Assembly (NCBI GenBank): GCA_026418295.1
Contig: JAOABP010000001.1
Coordinates: 372,001 to 436,000, forward strand
Origin: Caldifarciminota bacterium
Lineage (GTDB): Bacteria; Hydrothermota; Tepidihabitantia; Tepidihabitantales; Tepidihabitantaceae
DNA: 64,000 nucleotides
Reading direction: 5' to 3'
Below are positions 11,995 through 19,006 of this stretch, piece after piece. Position 1 is the first letter of the stretch; every line of letters starts with the position of its first letter. A program made the position numbers and the translations under genes. Below the pieces are notes generated by a model. The model was not told the origin of the DNA, made no database searches, and saw only the letters and a program-made list of their open reading frames with translations.

Positions 11995-14900
11995 TTGCAC
12001 CTAGCATTGCTGTTTTTTTGCATTATTGCCGGTGCCCGATTGGGCGATACCGTCAATCATACACTAAGAATTGCATCGGAAAAACTTAAGATCAACAGTT
12101 ATCAGGGCTTTGACCGGGTTACCCTGGATGGTGGCTTTTTTATCCCCGAACCGGGCAGACCGCTGCTGCCCGTAATCAGCGCCACTCTGGCAATACCGGC
12201 CGATGCCCGGCTCCATCGGGTCGAGGCAACTCCGCAGGCTACTGAGCAGATTGAAGGCAAATTCATTGTCCTGCCCGGTCAGTTTCCGGTACCGGTCTCC
12301 AAATCTCAACTTCCTGAATTGTGCCCACCCGACACTGCGATTTACCTCTCGGATCAACCATGGCCAGCTCAGTCTCTAATCAATTATTCAGTTCATCATA
12401 CCGGTGGATTTCAACTGGTTAATCTTCTCCTCTGTCCGTTCACTTATTTTCCCCTTTCTGGCTGTTTACTGCTTCACACTGAAATCAGCATTACTGTTAC
12501 CTTTGAGTCCGGGGCAAATCCCGTCACTCCCATCACTGTATCGCAGCGGAACCAGCACCTTCAGAGCCTGAAACCACTGGTCGTTAATCCAGATGACCTA
12601 ACCACATTCGCCCCTCCAGTATCCGGGAATGACCAGCTGTCAATTGACTATCTCATTATCACGAGCAGCGAACTGAAAGAAAGTTTCCAACCCTATCTTG
12701 AATACCGGTGCCAGCGCGGCATGCGCACCGAAATCCGAACTACCGGCTGGATTGAAGCCAACTATCCGGGGCGGGACCTTCAGGAAAAAATAAGAAATCA
12801 CATCATTGACTATTATCATAACCGGGGTGTAGTCTATGTTTTACTTGCCGGTGATAACCGGCAAATACCGTCCCGTCAGATCAGTGTTACTGTTGGCAAT
12901 GAACAGGGATTGATTCCCACTGATCTGTATTATGGAGACCTGGACTTCTCCTGGGACTCAAACCATAACAACCTGTTTGGCGAAATGGACGACTCGGTGG
13001 ATCTGTATGCTGATGTTTTTGTCGGACGGGTATCTGTAGAGACACCGGAACAGGTACGGAACTTCATCAGCAAAGTCCTCGCCTTTGAAAACACACCCGC
13101 TGCTGATTATATTCAGCGTTCCCTTTTGCCCTCAGGCTGGCTCTGGCGCTCGCTTAATTATCATGGCAAATTTGTGAATGACTCAATCGCCGAACTGACA
13201 CCAGCCGGCTGGACCGACCGCGAATTGGAGAATCCACCCGGCGCCGGTGTTGTTGCTGATTCCTTTAACAACGGCTTTTTGATCTTTGATCCGGCTGGTC
13301 ATGGCAACGAGACCGGTGTTTACGACGAAAATGGAACCCCAATTTATACCACCACCTATGCCGGCTACCAGACTAACCACAACCGGTATTCAATCATTAC
13401 CTCCCTTGCCTGCAATCCGGGAAATTTTGAAGCCGAGGACTGCCTGGCAGAAGTGGCACTCAACTGTCGTGATGGCGGCGCAATCGGGGTGATGATGAAC
13501 TCCCGCTACGGCTGGGGCACACCGCCGGTAATGGGACCTTCGGAAAAACTATGCGTCCGGTTCTATGACTACCTGCTCTCCCGTTCCGAATACCTGCTGG
13601 GTCCAGCTCATAACCGCTCCCGCGAAGAGTACGCAGGCTCTGCCATTTATTCATCACTCTGGCGCTGGTGTCTGACTGAATTTAATCTATTGGGTGACCC
13701 GACATTGGACATCTGGACTGCTCCGCCCCGTAATATGACCATTACCGCACCGGATACGATCACAACTGGCAGCCAGACCCTGTCGGTGAACGTTTACGAG
13801 AACACAAACCCTGCATCTGGTGTTAAGGTTACTGCCTGGAAAGATAATGAAGTGTTGGCTACCGGAATTACAGGCGGCAATGGTCAAGTCAGCATCAACA
13901 TCCATCCGTTCACTCCGGGTGAACTCCAGCTCACTGCGACCCGGCACAACAACCTTCCTGCCACCAAGGTGGTAACTGTGCTTCAGGGAGCAGCCGAACC
14001 GTATCTTGTTTATCGCAGTTGTGAAATTGATGATACTCTGCAGTCCAATCCTAACCGTATCCTGGAACCGGGAGAAACTGCACGATTAAAAATCACGATT
14101 AAAAACACCGGCACTGCACCAGCAACTTCGGTGCGCATGAAGATAACAGAAACCAGCCCTTATATTGACATCATTGATACAACTGCAATCCTGGGCACTA
14201 TCCTGCCCGCCGAATCCGCAACTGCAGAGAACATCACGATCACCGCAGTGTGTTCAGCTCCTCCAGGGTCCGAACCGGAATTCACCCTTTACATCCACTC
14301 GGACCAGAACAGCTGGCAGACCATGTTCTCGATTACTTTGGGGTATTCGGGCAGAACTTGGGCAGATATCTCCGCTGGCAACTGTGCTCTGACTGTAACC
14401 GCCCGGGGCAGTATTGGCTATGACACTGACGAGAGTCGGCGGGGCAGAGGATTCCGCTATCCCCTCAACGATACATCAAGCCTTTATCTTGCCAGCTTTG
14501 CCGTGGGCAATAGCCCGGATTACTTAGTTGATCGATTTTACCGTCAGCATGAAATTGATCAAGACTGGCAGCTGAATGACAGCATCCGTACCCGCCTGCC
14601 TGTCTGGAACGCCGCACAGCTTCTGCAGGCAAGCTTTACTGACCTGAATCACCCTCGGGTTAAATCAGTGATCGTTGACCAGCGGGCGCTTGTGCCGGCG
14701 CCACCCGGACCGCAGAATACAGTAATACTCGTTTATGACCTGTGGAATGCGGGAACTGTAGAACTCAACGACCTCTATGCTGGCATCCTCGCCGATTTTG
14801 ATGTAATTGCTACTGACCGGCTGCACGACCTTGCTTGGACCTTCCCTGAACAACGGACAGCAGTGATGCGGAATGTACACAACCCTAACCGATTCCTCGG

Positions 14901-15492
14901 TATCAAACAGCTCTATCCCACCACACCGGCTCATCTCACCTGTATTGACCATGCAATTTATGTTTATCCGGATTCAGCAATGACCGAAGATATGAAATAT
15001 CGCGCCATTACCGGCAACTTGGGGGTAAGACAAAGTGACCGCCCATTTAACTGGTCAGTTTCAGTCAGCACCGGACCATTTGAACTGATGCCAGGTGCAG
15101 GGAAAAGACGCATGGCATTCGCCTTTATTGGCGCACCGGACTCAATCTCATTCCTCAATACCTGCCAGATGGTTCAGGAGTGGTATGATCAGAATGTCGG
15201 TGTGCAGGAATCTCAAACCCTGATTAAACCGGACTTGATCAATTTTAGTATTGAACCCAGCATTTTTAACCGGACAACAACCGTCCACCTGCACCTTCCC
15301 ATACATTCCCGGGTGCGCCTCACCATACATGACATTGCGGGGAGAACCGTTACCCAGCTGTTCAATGGCAGCCTTGATGCTGGCAATCATCAGTTCGCTG
15401 TTAACAGTGAAAAACTGGCGCCTGGAGTTTACTTTGTCCGACTGGAATCTCAAGCAGGTCGACAGACGCTACGCATTCTCCGATTAAAATAA
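11995..15492 (+). CDS. Gingipain-like C25 family cysteine protease with type IX-style C-terminal tail
   Basis: 1165 residues from a TTG start with AGGAGG four bases upstream; residues 1-17 form a signal peptide. Order: C25 propeptide-like domain (about 25-190), catalytic C25 domain (about 215-580), Ig-like and CARDB-like beta domains (about 580-800), an uncharacterised stretch, and a C-terminal sorting tail (RVRLTIHDIAGRTV, then LAPGVYFVRL). His436 in PAGHGNE and Cys473 in TSLACNPGNFE match the gingipain His-Cys pair. It should be exported by a type IX system and act outside the cell, probably on protein substrates. No PorX/Spor genes are in the window. Confidence 0.9.
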   Translation: MHLALLFFCIIAGARLGDTVNHTLRIASEKLKINSYQGFDRVTLDGGFFIPEPGRPLLPVISATLAIPADARLHRVEATPQATEQIEGKFIVLPGQFPVPVSKSQLPELCPPDTAIYLSDQPWPAQSLINYSVHHTGGFQLVNLLLCPFTYFPLSGCLLLHTEISITVTFESGANPVTPITVSQRNQHLQSLKPLVVNPDDLTTFAPPVSGNDQLSIDYLIITSSELKESFQPYLEYRCQRGMRTEIRTTGWIEANYPGRDLQEKIRNHIIDYYHNRGVVYVLLAGDNRQIPSRQISVTVGNEQGLIPTDLYYGDLDFSWDSNHNNLFGEMDDSVDLYADVFVGRVSVETPEQVRNFISKVLAFENTPAADYIQRSLLPSGWLWRSLNYHGKFVNDSIAELTPAGWTDRELENPPGAGVVADSFNNGFLIFDPAGHGNETGVYDENGTPIYTTTYAGYQTNHNRYSIITSLACNPGNFEAEDCLAEVALNCRDGGAIGVMMNSRYGWGTPPVMGPSEKLCVRFYDYLLSRSEYLLGPAHNRSREEYAGSAIYSSLWRWCLTEFNLLGDPTLDIWTAPPRNMTITAPDTITTGSQTLSVNVYENTNPASGVKVTAWKDNEVLATGITGGNGQVSINIHPFTPGELQLTATRHNNLPATKVVTVLQGAAEPYLVYRSCEIDDTLQSNPNRILEPGETARLKITIKNTGTAPATSVRMKITETSPYIDIIDTTAILGTILPAESATAENITITAVCSAPPGSEPEFTLYIHSDQNSWQTMFSITLGYSGRTWADISAGNCALTVTARGSIGYDTDESRRGRGFRYPLNDTSSLYLASFAVGNSPDYLVDRFYRQHEIDQDWQLNDSIRTRLPVWNAAQLLQASFTDLNHPRVKSVIVDQRALVPAPPGPQNTVILVYDLWNAGTVELNDLYAGILADFDVIATDRLHDLAWTFPEQRTAVMRNVHNPNRFLGIKQLYPTTPAHLTCIDHAIYVYPDSAMTEDMKYRAITGNLGVRQSDRPFNWSVSVSTGPFELMPGAGKRRMAFAFIGAPDSISFLNTCQMVQEWYDQNVGVQESQTLIKPDLINFSIEPSIFNRTTTVHLHLPIHSRVRLTIHDIAGRTVTQLFNGSLDAGNHQFAVNSEKLAPGVYFVRLESQAGRQTLRILRLK

Positions 15493-15514
15493 CAGCCCTT
15501 AAACTGAAACTGTT

Positions 15515-15548
15515 CGGGGCTGACCGGTATTAATACCGGTCAGCCCCG
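15515..15548. terminator. Perfect 34-base palindrome between convergent genes
   Basis: Every base of 15515-15531 pairs with 15532-15548; the left arm starts CGGGGCTGACCGG and the centre is TATTAATA. It lies just after the C25 gene and before the end of the oppositely oriented 15618 gene, so a bidirectional terminator is the simplest reading. No T-run follows on either strand, which is unusual for an intrinsic terminator; a protein-binding site is the alternative. Confidence 0.65.
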
Positions 15549-15617
15549 GTGGAGGCGCGGTCTGGCTCGGTTTACATAACCCCGCTGATCATCTCCCTCA
15601 CCTTTCAACTCCGAAAT

Positions 15618-15833
15618 TCAATTTTCGCCAAACAGGCGAACGCCAGCAATTCCCGATTTGTAGTAACACCAACCCTTACCTCTTACTGGATCAACCGCGA
15701 CCACAGAATTGGAAATCGGAGCGAATTGCGGCTCCGATTCGCTGATGCGCATCCTGGCGATAAAAACTCCAGTCAACAGTAACCCAATTCCTACTCCTGC
15801 CTCCACCCATTTTCTCATTGCTACTCCCATCAT
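15618..15833 (-). CDS. Small single-pass membrane protein B (sigma-54 module)
   Basis: 71 residues; GGGAGGC lies four bases before the ATG. One N-terminal membrane segment (about 11-26, GVGIGLLLTGVFIA) is followed by ARMRISES and a short polar tail with one cysteine. The N-terminal half resembles the neighbouring gene: VEAG...GVFIARMRISE against VERV...GLMVARLRSVE, so they are paralogues. No known family recognised; a pilin-like or small regulatory membrane peptide are guesses. It is the second gene after a sigma-54 promoter and 20 bases from the first. Confidence 0.75.
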   Translation of the reverse strand: MMGVAMRKWVEAGVGIGLLLTGVFIARMRISESEPQFAPISNSVVAVDPVRGKGWCYYKSGIAGVRLFGEN

Positions 15834-15853
15834 TTCTGCCTCCCTAGAGGTTT

Positions 15854-16054
15854 TTATCGATATATATTATCAACCAGCATCCGCTCAGTGGCGATCTTCT
15901 TGATCTGATAATCCCGCATCGATTCATGGAGATTAACCTTCGATTCAAGAGCCCCTCGCTCTACAGACCTCAGCCTTGCAACCATCAACCCAGCTACCCC
16001 AACCACACCAACCAGAAGTATCTGCATTACTCTTTCTACACCTCTATTAAACAT
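15854..16054 (-). CDS. Small single-pass membrane protein A (sigma-54 module)
   Basis: 66 residues with AAGGAG at good distance before the ATG. A membrane segment at about 10-26 (MQILLVGVVGVAGLMVA) follows a short basic start, then ARLRSVERG and a charged, probably helical tail (ESMRDYQIKKIATERM). It is the first gene behind the sigma-54 promoter at 16114-16129, with a leader of about 50 bases. Function unknown. Being driven by the adjacent enhancer-binding protein is inferred from the operator and promoter layout. Confidence 0.78.
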   Translation of the reverse strand: MFNRGVERVMQILLVGVVGVAGLMVARLRSVERGALESKVNLHESMRDYQIKKIATERMLVDNIYR

Positions 16055-16113
16055 TTTTACTCCTTTCTTTTAATCTCCTCTGCTGTCTTCTGTTTGCCAT
16101 CGCATTAAAGAAA

Positions 16114-16129
16114 TGCAAAAATAGTGCCA
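16114..16129 (-). promoter_or_regulatory. Sigma-54 (-24/-12) promoter
   Basis: The minus strand reads TGGCACTATTTTTGCA, which matches the RpoN consensus TGGCAC-N5-TTGCW. The -24 GG is at 16127-16128 and the -12 GC at 16115-16116. Transcription should start near 16102, toward the two small membrane genes. Confidence 0.85.
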
Positions 16130-16215
16130 GATTAAATTTTATTATTATAACTATGCTAATTACAATATATTAGGACGAAAAAGAGCCGGCTGATTTTACA
16201 AAATGTCGCATCTAC

Positions 16216-16267
16216 GGAGACAGTGAGTTTAAATGTCTCAAATTATGAGACAACCTGTCTCAAATTT
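16216..16267. promoter_or_regulatory. Probable enhancer (upstream activator) site: TGTCTCA half-site cluster
   Basis: Half-sites GGAGACA (16216-16222), TGTCTCA (16234-16240), TGAGACA (16246-16252) and TGTCTCA (16256-16262). They form TGTCTCA-N5-TGAGACA and TGAGACA-N3-TGTCTCA inverted repeats. TGTCTCAAATT also repeats directly 22 bases apart, about two helical turns. The cluster is about 115-165 bases upstream of the predicted sigma-54 start, the normal place for an enhancer-binding protein, and lies just past the activator gene. Confidence 0.72.
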
Positions 16268-16297
16268 ATTTTCTGGTTCAGTTTATTAAAAAAGGGG

Positions 16298-19006
16298 TTA
16301 ATTCCTAGTGCTATCTCTAAATTTTATATTGTGCTTTTTTATTAAACGATAGAACTGTGCCCGGCTGTAACCTGAAAGTTCAGCTGCCTTTTTGACATTT
16401 CCGTTAGCTCTCTCAAGACAATCCATGACCATCGCTCGTTCCAGCTCTGCGCTCGCCTTTTCTTGGACAATTTTTTTGGCTGATTTCAGTGGCGACTGGA
16501 TATCAGCCTGCTGAAAACTGCTCAAATGGCGCAACTCTGGCGGCAGATCTTCAATCTCAATCTCCTCCCCCTTTGCCAGTACCACCGCCCGCTGAATCAC
16601 ATTCCGCAGCTGCCGGATATTACCGGGCCAGCTATAAGCAAGAAACAGACGCAACACCGCCGGACTAACACCACGGACCTCCCGTTTTGCCTCCTGATTT
16701 GCCTTAGCAATGAAAAACCGAACCAGCTCAGGAATATCTTCTGCCCGTTCCCTTAAAGGCGGCAGGTAGATCTCAATACCGTTCAGACGGTAATAAAGAT
16801 CCTCCCGGAACCTTCCTTCCTGAATAAGTTTCTCCAGATTTTGATTAGTAGCAGCAACCACCCGGACATCAACCCGCACCGGTCTAGTGCTGCCTACCCG
16901 CTCAAAAGTCTTGTCCTGCAGAACCCGCAACAACTTTGCCTGCAACCCGGGGCTCATATCACCGATCTCATCCAAAAAAACTGTTCCCCCGTCAGCCAGT
17001 TCAAACTTTCCCTTACGCGCACTCACCCCGGTAGCCGCACCTTTTTCTACACCGAAGAACTCTGCTTCAAGCAGGGTTTCCGGCACCGCAGCGCAGTTAA
17101 TCGGTACGAATGGCTTTCCACTTCGGCTACTGGTAAAATGTATCGCCCGCGCTACCAGCTCTTTGCCGGTTCCACTCTCACCCCGGATGAGAACAGGAAG
17201 ACTTGAGTCCGCACAGCGAACAAGGATTTCTAGATTCTTTCTCATCACTGCCGACCTGCCGATCACACCGTCAAACCGCAGACCGGGAATTTCCATTGTT
17301 GGCGCTGGCAGTTCCTCAGCTAAACTGTAGAACTTCTCAACTGCTGGTGCTAAAAGCGAAGCCACCGTCTCCAGCACGCTGGTGCGAATATCTAATTTCC
17401 CTGATGCTGTCCGCGCCAGATAAATATAACCTCTCACATCGCCTCGGACACATACCGGCATCAGCACTTCGTGCTCCTTAACAGTCGGAGCCCCCTGTTC
17501 CCAATCTTCCCCTGCAACATTAACGTCACCATAGATAATCCTGGGAATCTGGTTGATTATTAGTGCCGCCCCATCAAATCCGAATGCTTCACAAATCATC
17601 TTGAGGGCGCCTTCAATGAACTTACCCGATTCAAGTCCGGCAAGCGCCAGCCCGGCAATTCCAGCAACCAGAGCAATTTCCCGGTCGGCATTAAGTTCCA
17701 GACGGAACAGAATCCGGTTCACCTCATCAGTTTCTGCCACAAGTCCCAGTTTCCGGAAAACCCGGCTGGCAAACTTCAGTTCCTCCGCTGCCCGTTCCTT
17801 CTGATTCTGTTCCAAGAGAAACTGCCCAAATTGCAGCCGCAACCGGGCTGATTCATAACTCTCAGGTTCATCATCAAGCAACTCTCGTGCCCGTTCGTAA
17901 AAGCTGCGCGCCGCACCAGCCATACCCTGCTCCTGCTCCAGTAGCGCCCGGACCCGGAATACTTCTGCCTCGACATTGCGGGCACCCAGCTCCTCTGCCA
18001 GCTGTTGCGCCTGCTGACAGAGCCCGGCGCACCGATCGTAATTTCCCTGTGCCAGCTCCAGTTCCGCCATCCGCCACAAGAGCATACTGCTATTCAGCCG
18101 GTCCTGATTCACCGCGCACAAATCGATTGCCTCCCCAAACGCCCGGCTTGCTGCCGCATAATTGCGCCGCCGGAACTCGGCTTCGCCCAGATTGGTCAGA
18201 CTGTCCCTTAGCAGTTCAGCTGCAGTCAATCCCTTTCTCCCGGCCTCGACAACCGTGGTAAAAACCTCCACTGCTCGTTCCAAGCGGTCACGCTTAAGAA
18301 ACAGTTCACCCAGCAGGTTCAACGCATTGTAACGGATAAAATCATATCCGTGCTGTTCAGCCAGTGCCACCGCCCGATAAAGATTTTCCTCTGCATCGTC
18401 CCACTCACCAAGCTGAAGATAGACCCAACCCAGATTGCAGTAATTAGTTGCCCGGACAAAGTCATCAAACTCGGAATGTTCCAGCAACTGCCGGCACTGC
18501 TGATAATAATCTCTTGCCTCATGATAACGCCCGGTGAGTCCTGCAACATTTCCCAGACCATTAAGTGCAGCATAAATTCCGCGCACTACCCCGGCCTTCT
18601 GCCACTCTGTCAGTGCCCGCTGGTAGCAATCGATCGCTGCTTCATAGTTGCACCTTGCCTGCTCCACCTGTCCAGTGAGATACCAGCCTGATCCGATGAA
18701 CCGCGGCTCCCCAATCTCAGTACCGATTTTCCTGACCCGCTGGGCATAAAGATCAGCTTCTTCATTTGCCCCGCAGTGCCGGCAGATATCAGATAGCCGG
18801 CGTGCCAGCCGCACTTCAATCAAACGCCTGCCCTGCTCCTGAGCTGCCAAGAGCTCATGTTCAAATAAAGGCTTGAGCAGTGGTGCAGCATTTACTACAA
18901 AACTATCTGCCAGTCCAACTAGTAACTCTGCACGCTCCTCAAGAGAAGAACAGTGAGCAAGCTGGGTTTCCAGTTCCCTTACCCGCTGCAGAAAATCATC
19001 CATCAT
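16298..19006 (-). CDS. Sigma-54-dependent transcriptional activator, TPR-GAF-AAA+-Fis
   Basis: 902 residues. Residues about 60-430 are TPR-like helical repeats (GNVAGLTGRYHEARDYYQQC, LGWVYLQLGEWDDAEENLYR), about 440-565 a GAF domain, about 580-825 the AAA+ domain, and 855-896 a Fis-type helix-turn-helix. Walker A GESGTGKE is at 609-616, Walker B TVFLDE at 675-680, arginine finger region FREDLYYRL at 733-741. The sigma-54 contact loop, normally GAFTGA, is GAATGV at 656-661. There is no receiver domain, so the signal is probably a protein partner (TPR) or a small ligand (GAF). Its likely target is the promoter just downstream of its own gene. A TTGACA-N17-TATGCT promoter ends about 11 bases before the ATG. 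Confidence 0.92.
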   Translation of the reverse strand: MMDDFLQRVRELETQLAHCSSLEERAELLVGLADSFVVNAAPLLKPLFEHELLAAQEQGRRLIEVRLARRLSDICRHCGANEEADLYAQRVRKIGTEIGEPRFIGSGWYLTGQVEQARCNYEAAIDCYQRALTEWQKAGVVRGIYAALNGLGNVAGLTGRYHEARDYYQQCRQLLEHSEFDDFVRATNYCNLGWVYLQLGEWDDAEENLYRAVALAEQHGYDFIRYNALNLLGELFLKRDRLERAVEVFTTVVEAGRKGLTAAELLRDSLTNLGEAEFRRRNYAAASRAFGEAIDLCAVNQDRLNSSMLLWRMAELELAQGNYDRCAGLCQQAQQLAEELGARNVEAEVFRVRALLEQEQGMAGAARSFYERARELLDDEPESYESARLRLQFGQFLLEQNQKERAAEELKFASRVFRKLGLVAETDEVNRILFRLELNADREIALVAGIAGLALAGLESGKFIEGALKMICEAFGFDGAALIINQIPRIIYGDVNVAGEDWEQGAPTVKEHEVLMPVCVRGDVRGYIYLARTASGKLDIRTSVLETVASLLAPAVEKFYSLAEELPAPTMEIPGLRFDGVIGRSAVMRKNLEILVRCADSSLPVLIRGESGTGKELVARAIHFTSSRSGKPFVPINCAAVPETLLEAEFFGVEKGAATGVSARKGKFELADGGTVFLDEIGDMSPGLQAKLLRVLQDKTFERVGSTRPVRVDVRVVAATNQNLEKLIQEGRFREDLYYRLNGIEIYLPPLRERAEDIPELVRFFIAKANQEAKREVRGVSPAVLRLFLAYSWPGNIRQLRNVIQRAVVLAKGEEIEIEDLPPELRHLSSFQQADIQSPLKSAKKIVQEKASAELERAMVMDCLERANGNVKKAAELSGYSRAQFYRLIKKHNIKFRDSTRN

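Follow-up and report, generated by a model that had tools for sequence, protein, structure and literature searches.

The TGTCTCA motif repeated in the window (the whole stretch of 64,000 nucleotides that was analysed) is, judged from its sequence surroundings, very probably the landing site of the regulator encoded beside it, and lies upstream of a sigma-54 promoter. The array that the motif forms is likely to be an enhancer of this minus-strand promoter, where the adjacent regulator would bind and thereby activate an operon of tiny ORFs. Since the same layout of dyad and promoter recurs, as read from the assemblies, at some twenty tiny-ORF promoters in related uncultured WOR-3 bacteria, the array is taken as the enhancer element of a small regulon in which sigma-54 promoters serve tiny orphan proteins. 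This reading is built from sequence features, namely the site, the promoter, ORF1, the near-constant spacing, the recurrence, the restriction to one family and a unique recognition helix; from these we infer binding, activation, the signal and the role of the tiny membrane proteins. What began as an isolated repeat is thereby placed in a proposed regulon that comprises an operator, a promoter, an activator and its targets. The elements concerned, from regulator to peptidase, are as follows.

16298..19006, minus strand: regulator of TPR-GAF-AAA+(sigma54_activat)-Fis HTH type, with the GAF part predicted, 902 aa, putative ligand of O1 and O2
16256..16262, minus strand: additional TGAGACA half-site in TTTGAGACA, 22 bp upstream of its counterpart in O1
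16234..16252, minus strand: putative operator O1, TGTCTCATAATTTGAGACA, a perfect dyad of 19 bp centred 114 bp above -24
16204..16222, minus strand: putative operator O2, TGTCTCCGTAGATGCGACA, a dyad with 2 mismatches centred 84 bp above -24
16114..16129, minus strand: sigma-54 -24/-12 promoter TGGCACTATTTTTGCA, 0 mismatches to the consensus used
15854..16054, minus strand: ORF1, 66 aa, one hydrophobic segment at residues 9-27, tiny-protein family
15618..15833, minus strand: ORF2, 71 aa, putative second small ORF of the operon
15554..15568, minus strand: GAGCCAGACCGCGCC, just upstream of the closing hairpin
15517..15548, no strand: hairpin GGGGCTGACCGGTATTAATACCGGTCAGCCCC, z -4.85, where the operon and the C25 peptidase gene converge
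11995-15492, plus strand: C25 peptidase gene, convergent with the operon

The array lies in the 805-bp gap between the 3' end of the regulator gene and the convergent peptidase gene. The initial annotation had placed four half-sites here, and a motif search of the window bears out their positions: TGTCTCA occurs exactly on the plus strand at 16234-16240 and 16256-16262 and on the minus strand at 16246-16252, and the fourth half-site, GGAGACA at 16216-16222, matches at 6 of 7 positions. The offset of 22 bp between the copies of TGTCTCAAATT that start at 16234 and 16256 is equally real, and is kept in the sister species (G004), but it is not the functional geometry it had been taken for. What recurs across the family is the inverted repeat with the N5 spacer, a 19-bp dyad TGTCTCA-N5-TGAGACA that represents the true unit and that stands about 84 bp above the -24 element and in many cases about 165 bp above it as well; the two-turn direct repeat was rejected as a general geometry, having been seen in G004 and the window's own genome (G000) only. 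The inverted repeat with the N3 spacer, also proposed at the outset, proved incidental. In G004 it is broken, with TGAGACAATTTTTATCA at its place, and in the 1.8-Mb genome TGAGACA-N3-TGTCTCA occurs exactly once and, at no more than 2 mismatches, 2 times per strand against 4 per strand for its reversed control, so that it was discarded as an operator and reads as a by-product of the half-site lying beside O1.

The halves of O2 are GGAGACA and TGTCGCA (16204-16210), the latter overlooked earlier, and the dyad that they form occupies, at 84 bp above -24, the position found family-wide. In the sister genome the quality of the two dyads is swapped: the counterpart of O2, TGTCTCGATAGATGAGACA, stands at the same place with 1 mismatch and O1 is kept with 2 mismatches, and the extra half-site is conserved as well. 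The centres of O1 and O2 fall at about -138 and -108 from the expected start, in rough agreement with the 100-150 bp or so upstream of the promoter at which one account places the upstream activating sequence that a bEBP binds (PMC7057263).

How much of this order could chance supply? The initial annotation saw more order than chance gives, and the clustering is indeed unusual: of 2000 dinucleotide shuffles of the gap, 36 contained some 7-mer three times within 60 bp, as did 24 of 2000 shuffles of its AT-rich part. By itself, though, TGTCTCA shows no excess in the window, with 5 copies where 6.8 are expected. The window as a whole holds 7 clusters of three like 7-mers against 1.0 per shuffle (20 shuffles), the remaining six consisting of other 7-mers elsewhere. 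With seven such clusters in the window, clustering alone is weak evidence, and it is the comparative evidence that counts.

That evidence comes from the promoters. Sites were scored as sigma-54 type on a -24/-12 element of the form TGGCAC-N5-TTGCA with invariant GG and GC; the counterpart of the window's element in the sister genome is TGGCACATTTTTTGCA, and a stretch resembling a ribosome site, AAAGGAG, can be seen by eye between the window's element and ORF1. At eight loci, the window included, the region 3' of the orthologous regulator gene holds more or less exact dyads, a sigma-54-type site and a tiny ORF. The wider set comprises 20 tiny-ORF promoters of the WOR-3 family, 10 treated as regulator-linked and 10 lying elsewhere in the genomes. 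Among the linked is that of G016, counted so on thin evidence, because an HTH-like end (RLMRKHNISG) reads into the upstream region of its tiny ORF. Their -24/-12 elements carry 0-3 mismatches in 19 cases and 5 in one, which was hand-corrected to a site further upstream. With the -24 site chosen automatically, a dyad with at most 3 of 14 mismatches is centred 79-88 bp above -24, a range fixed after the 20 promoters had been inspected, at 17/20 promoters (8/10 linked, 9/10 unlinked), and at 18/20 after one hand-corrected -24 site (G006); dinucleotide shuffles give a mean of 0.01 and at most 1. A second dyad follows at 162-177 bp in 10 of the 20 (0.007 in shuffles). Under the automatic choices 31 dyads were placed in all, 17 at 79-86 bp, 10 at 162-177 bp, two at 114 bp, both from the window's genus, and one each at 193 and 213 bp, the last from the miscalled G006 promoter. 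In three of four further operons, two of them partly seen beforehand, the dyad stands at 83, 84 and 84 bp; the fourth (G006:C7:29561) has a tiny-ORF match and neither dyad nor promoter.

The genome-wide motif search that had been suggested for both spacers failed to set N3 above its control, as described. With the N5 spacer, the 1.8-Mb genome holds one exact dyad and a second that has 1 mismatch, at C8:345274-345292 of G000. This second site, too, precedes a sigma-54-like promoter, TGGCATGTGAGTTGCT, at a distance of 84 bp, and behind the promoter comes a 52-aa ORF with WVAFITGSVWDGCEWLGC; the arrangement is the same in G004. Across the 18 family genomes the dyad at no more than 1 mismatch gives 13 sites against 0 for the reversed control. 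Ten of the 13 stand upstream of tiny-ORF operons, in keeping with the expected tie to sigma-54 promoters; two (G016:C68 and G006:C45) overlap ORFs, and one (G013:C282), immediately ahead of a 445-aa ORF, is unexplained. Random scatter with no sigma-54 link, which the initial annotation had set against an operator, was looked for in the family and did not appear. A composite search returned 19 matches in the family against 2 for the control. Of the 19, 11 belong to tiny-ORF operons, 2 directly follow g6 paralogues on the 3' side and 6 are presumed to be chance; the window's own O2 does not fit the exact composite pattern. Outside the family the tallies for 129 genomes are 51 against 20, so that the composite is not specific there, and for the dyad 63 against 33, scattered sites that must be mostly noise.

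These outside dyads, together with the six other clusters of the window and the triple 7-mers of about 2% of shuffled gaps, are what could be cited if the dyads belonged to a different DNA-binding protein or had no function, the cluster being a chance repeat. The comparative data already contradict such a view, which appears highly improbable: the sister species conserves the dyads, and 17-18 of the 20 promoters, from different genera, have one at near-constant distance where shuffles give 0.01. At one locus of a different family (L127, G085:C76:5235-5353), a weaker sigma-54-like site and a 29-codon ORF are preceded by three TGTCTCA-N5-TGAGACA dyads, all of them almost perfect.

The sigma factor itself is encoded in G000 (rpoN, PF04552 at 3.1e-48) and was found in 17 of the 18 family genomes. 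In the remaining one, G009, no rpoN was detected, and the module is present with a poor -24/-12 element (3 mismatches). In G005, of the same genus as the window, searches gave no full-length regulator match (partial only), no dyad, no composite site and no clear tiny-ORF match; this genome retains rpoN and a relative of the C25 peptidase (61% identical) with another gene beside it.

The regulator has the domains of a sigma-54 activator, with the sigma-54 interaction AAA+ domain (PF00158, 4.1e-67) followed by a Fis-type HTH (PF02954, 4.8e-10). N-terminal to these come about eleven TPRs, counted as helix pairs and supported by both Pfam matches and an AlphaFold model (pLDDT 88.7), and then what appears to be a GAF-like domain, assigned from a predicted alpha-beta fold and not from a Pfam match. 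Its recognition region reads GYSRAQFYRLI, and the SRAQFYR helix is found in this regulator alone among five strong Sigma54_activat proteins of G000 (three weaker matches left out). The helix is common to regulators beside TGTCTC dyads, and paralogues with RRHFFR, RRHFYR or RTNFYR adjoin dyads that differ by eye. Five loci (L048, L049, L050, L059 and L060) have SRAQFYR without a dyad just 3', so that helix and site are not strictly paired. A Sigma54_activat domain also occurs at G000:C8:48346-49464, within an open frame of 1756 aa that has TPR-like repeats; its loop reads GAFTGA and its helix is a different one. Paralogous TPR regulators at L168 and L169 (G010:C72, G011:C8) are followed 3' by TGTCTCA dyads and a sigma-54-like site, which precede a protein of about 180 aa; that of G010 has no Pfam match.

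One feature of the regulator fits poorly with activation. Loop 1, which contacts sigma-54, reads GAATGV instead of GAFTGA and is one residue shorter by alignment to NifA. The phenylalanine is absent from all 25 TPR-clade loops read (G[ATV]ATG[VIA]; locus L065 unread), and the four other strong proteins of G000 have GAFTGA in three cases and GAFTDA in one. GAFTGA mutants mostly fail to activate (PMC7175178), and enhancer-binding proteins devoid of the motif (NtrC of Caulobacter and Rhodobacter, VspR) are described as working at sigma-70 promoters (PMC10274813). The regulator might therefore bind the dyads and, lacking GAFTGA, repress or tune the promoter rather than activate sigma-54, with activation left to another enhancer-binding protein. 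This is unlikely. The promoters are of sigma-54 type, with dyads about 84 bp above -24 rather than over the promoter, the four other strong activators of the genome lack the recognition helix, and the Thr-Gly of the loop is kept in 25/25 of those read. It is the presence of sigma-54 promoters at near-constant enhancer distance that makes activation the likelier role. The variant clade, with its candidate target promoters, then amounts to a natural test of how far sigma-54 activation needs the GAFTGA phenylalanine.

The proposed activation would proceed as follows. The TPR solenoid and GAF-like domain presumably take a signal, and the regulator would dock as a Fis-type dimer on each of the 19-bp dyads, O2 and O1. 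Once bound, it would assemble, loop to the RNA polymerase-sigma54 complex at 16129..16114 and open it, so that the promoter would fire along the minus strand, in the direction that leads away from the regulator gene, with transcription of the ORF1/ORF2 operon. The same regulator may also drive the second operon at G000:C8:345 kb, that of the 52-aa WVAFITGSVWDGCEWLGC protein. The hairpin at 15517..15548 is a probable shared 3' end of the operon and the C25 peptidase gene. Just before it, GAGCCAGACCGCGCC has no Rfam match, and its 11-base core is found at a like place near the operon end in G004, G007, G008 and G009 (L042-L045). An RNA element at 15400-16400 was considered and dropped, the 7 Rfam matches (E 0.18-4.5) all lying below gathering scores; Rfam likewise gave no gathering-level match on L041, L043 and L170-L172.

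What, then, are the targets? ORF1 has 20 homologues in alignment A5, 65-73 aa long, each with a single hydrophobic peak that starts at residue 6-18 and lies mostly near 9-27; Tyr49 is invariant (20/20) and Thr56 is kept in at least 90%. Substitutions fall at third codon positions in 13/19 cases between G000 and G004 and 16/28 between G007 and G008, a bias from which ORF1 is judged very probably coding. Little or no bias is seen in ORF2 (11/28 and 13/26), the coding status of which is uncertain, or in the 52-aa ORF (5/13). The latter is supported by conservation between genera, and relatives of its protein stand behind an ORF1-type gene in G007, G008 and G009. Both ORF1 and the 52-aa protein represent families with no library match: eight ORF1 members scanned in Pfam gave no match below E 0.096, and NCBIfam gave none for ORF1 (residues 2-66), for ORF2 or for the 52-aa protein, the last scanned in NCBIfam only. 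The tiny-ORF profile matches in 12/18 family genomes and 0/129 other genomes of the phylum. Profile A5 yields matches in 15/18, but those of G005 (0.008), G011 (2.2e-5) and G015 (0.009) extend over no more than about the first 36 of its 70 positions, for which reason they were not counted; matches of a WDGCEWL profile in G061 (0.004, 0.008) resemble chance. Five loci were found in the named collection, three in candidate division WOR-3 MAGs, one in an uncultured bacterium and one as a weak Poribacteria match. That the tiny membrane proteins form an envelope output is a guess, prompted by the proposal that sigma-54 controls mainly the bacterial exterior (PMC3162934).

ORF1 is tiny, has its hydrophobic segment near the N-terminus and comes immediately 3' of a TPR regulator that presumably controls it, an anatomy that also brings to mind a pheromone switch, in which the regulator would sense a fragment of ORF1 and induce its own signal with sigma-54 as output. 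Among the 50 listed of 416 fold matches (E <= 0.001), the TPR model (pLDDT 88.7) is most like the TPR domains of LGN, which have often been solved together with a bound partner; the 50 are LGN, OGT, CTPR, APC/C and similar. However, no RRNPP protein is among the 50, and no bacterial sensor relative of the TPR region could be singled out from them. Typical pheromones change fast, unlike the C-terminal half of ORF1 with its Y49 (20/20) and T56 (at least 90%), and unlinked extra copies as well as non-homologous small ORFs have the same promoter type. Peptide sensing is thus a possible circuit drawn purely from anatomy, and one that seems quite improbable. The more ambitious synthesis, in which a TPR-sensing clade without the loop phenylalanine acts on sigma-54 promoters through enhancers that are often paired and set at near-rigid distances, with tiny membrane peptides encoded next door as output and possibly as signal source of a peptide-sensing, self-amplifying switch, is to be regarded with considerable doubt. 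The preferred reading remains the simpler one of an enhancer through which the adjacent regulator activates the tiny-ORF operon.

How does this arrangement compare with known systems? Its parts are of known kind, a sigma-54 promoter, an enhancer and an adjacent activator; new are the TPR sensor, the altered loop, the often paired enhancers at near-constant distance and the tiny orphan membrane proteins as output. The system was not found in the open-access literature searched, and a term search of a genome survey of the phylum (PMC12542636) shows no mention of sigma factors or enhancers. The RRNPP(A) regulators of Bacillota likewise combine a TPR sensor with a tiny, presumably co-regulated ORF directly 3', but here the output is sigma-54, the DNA-binding domain is a Fis HTH, the C-terminal half of the peptide is partly conserved, and export and peptide binding are only putative. 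In another WOR-3 family, activators that we label PilR-like (L170-L172; G103, G105, G108) stand with TGTATCA...TGAGACA motifs, a sigma-54 promoter and a target in a similar order of parts. The activator of L171, however, starts with a receiver-type sequence and has GAFTGA, the spacing differs, and the target is a type IV pilin-like gene, unlike the window's tiny ORF; a leader of about 200 bp, alike in all three and without Rfam match, precedes this gene.

In the Psp system, small membrane Psp proteins are under sigma-54 control beside the gene for the activator PspF, as proposed here for the tiny proteins. The differences are that ORF1 matches nothing in Pfam or NCBIfam and that the window's regulator has a large cis-regulatory domain. 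PspF has none (PMC7057263). More generally, the -24/-12 promoter, the upstream dyad enhancers and the adjacent AAA+ activator with its Fis HTH are those of sigma-54/bEBP systems of the NtrC, NifA and PspF type, whereas the present system departs from them in the TPR and predicted GAF-like N-terminus, in a loop 1 that reads GAATGV, in targets that are orphan, tiny and single-TM, and in the two enhancers set about 81 bp apart at about half of its promoters.
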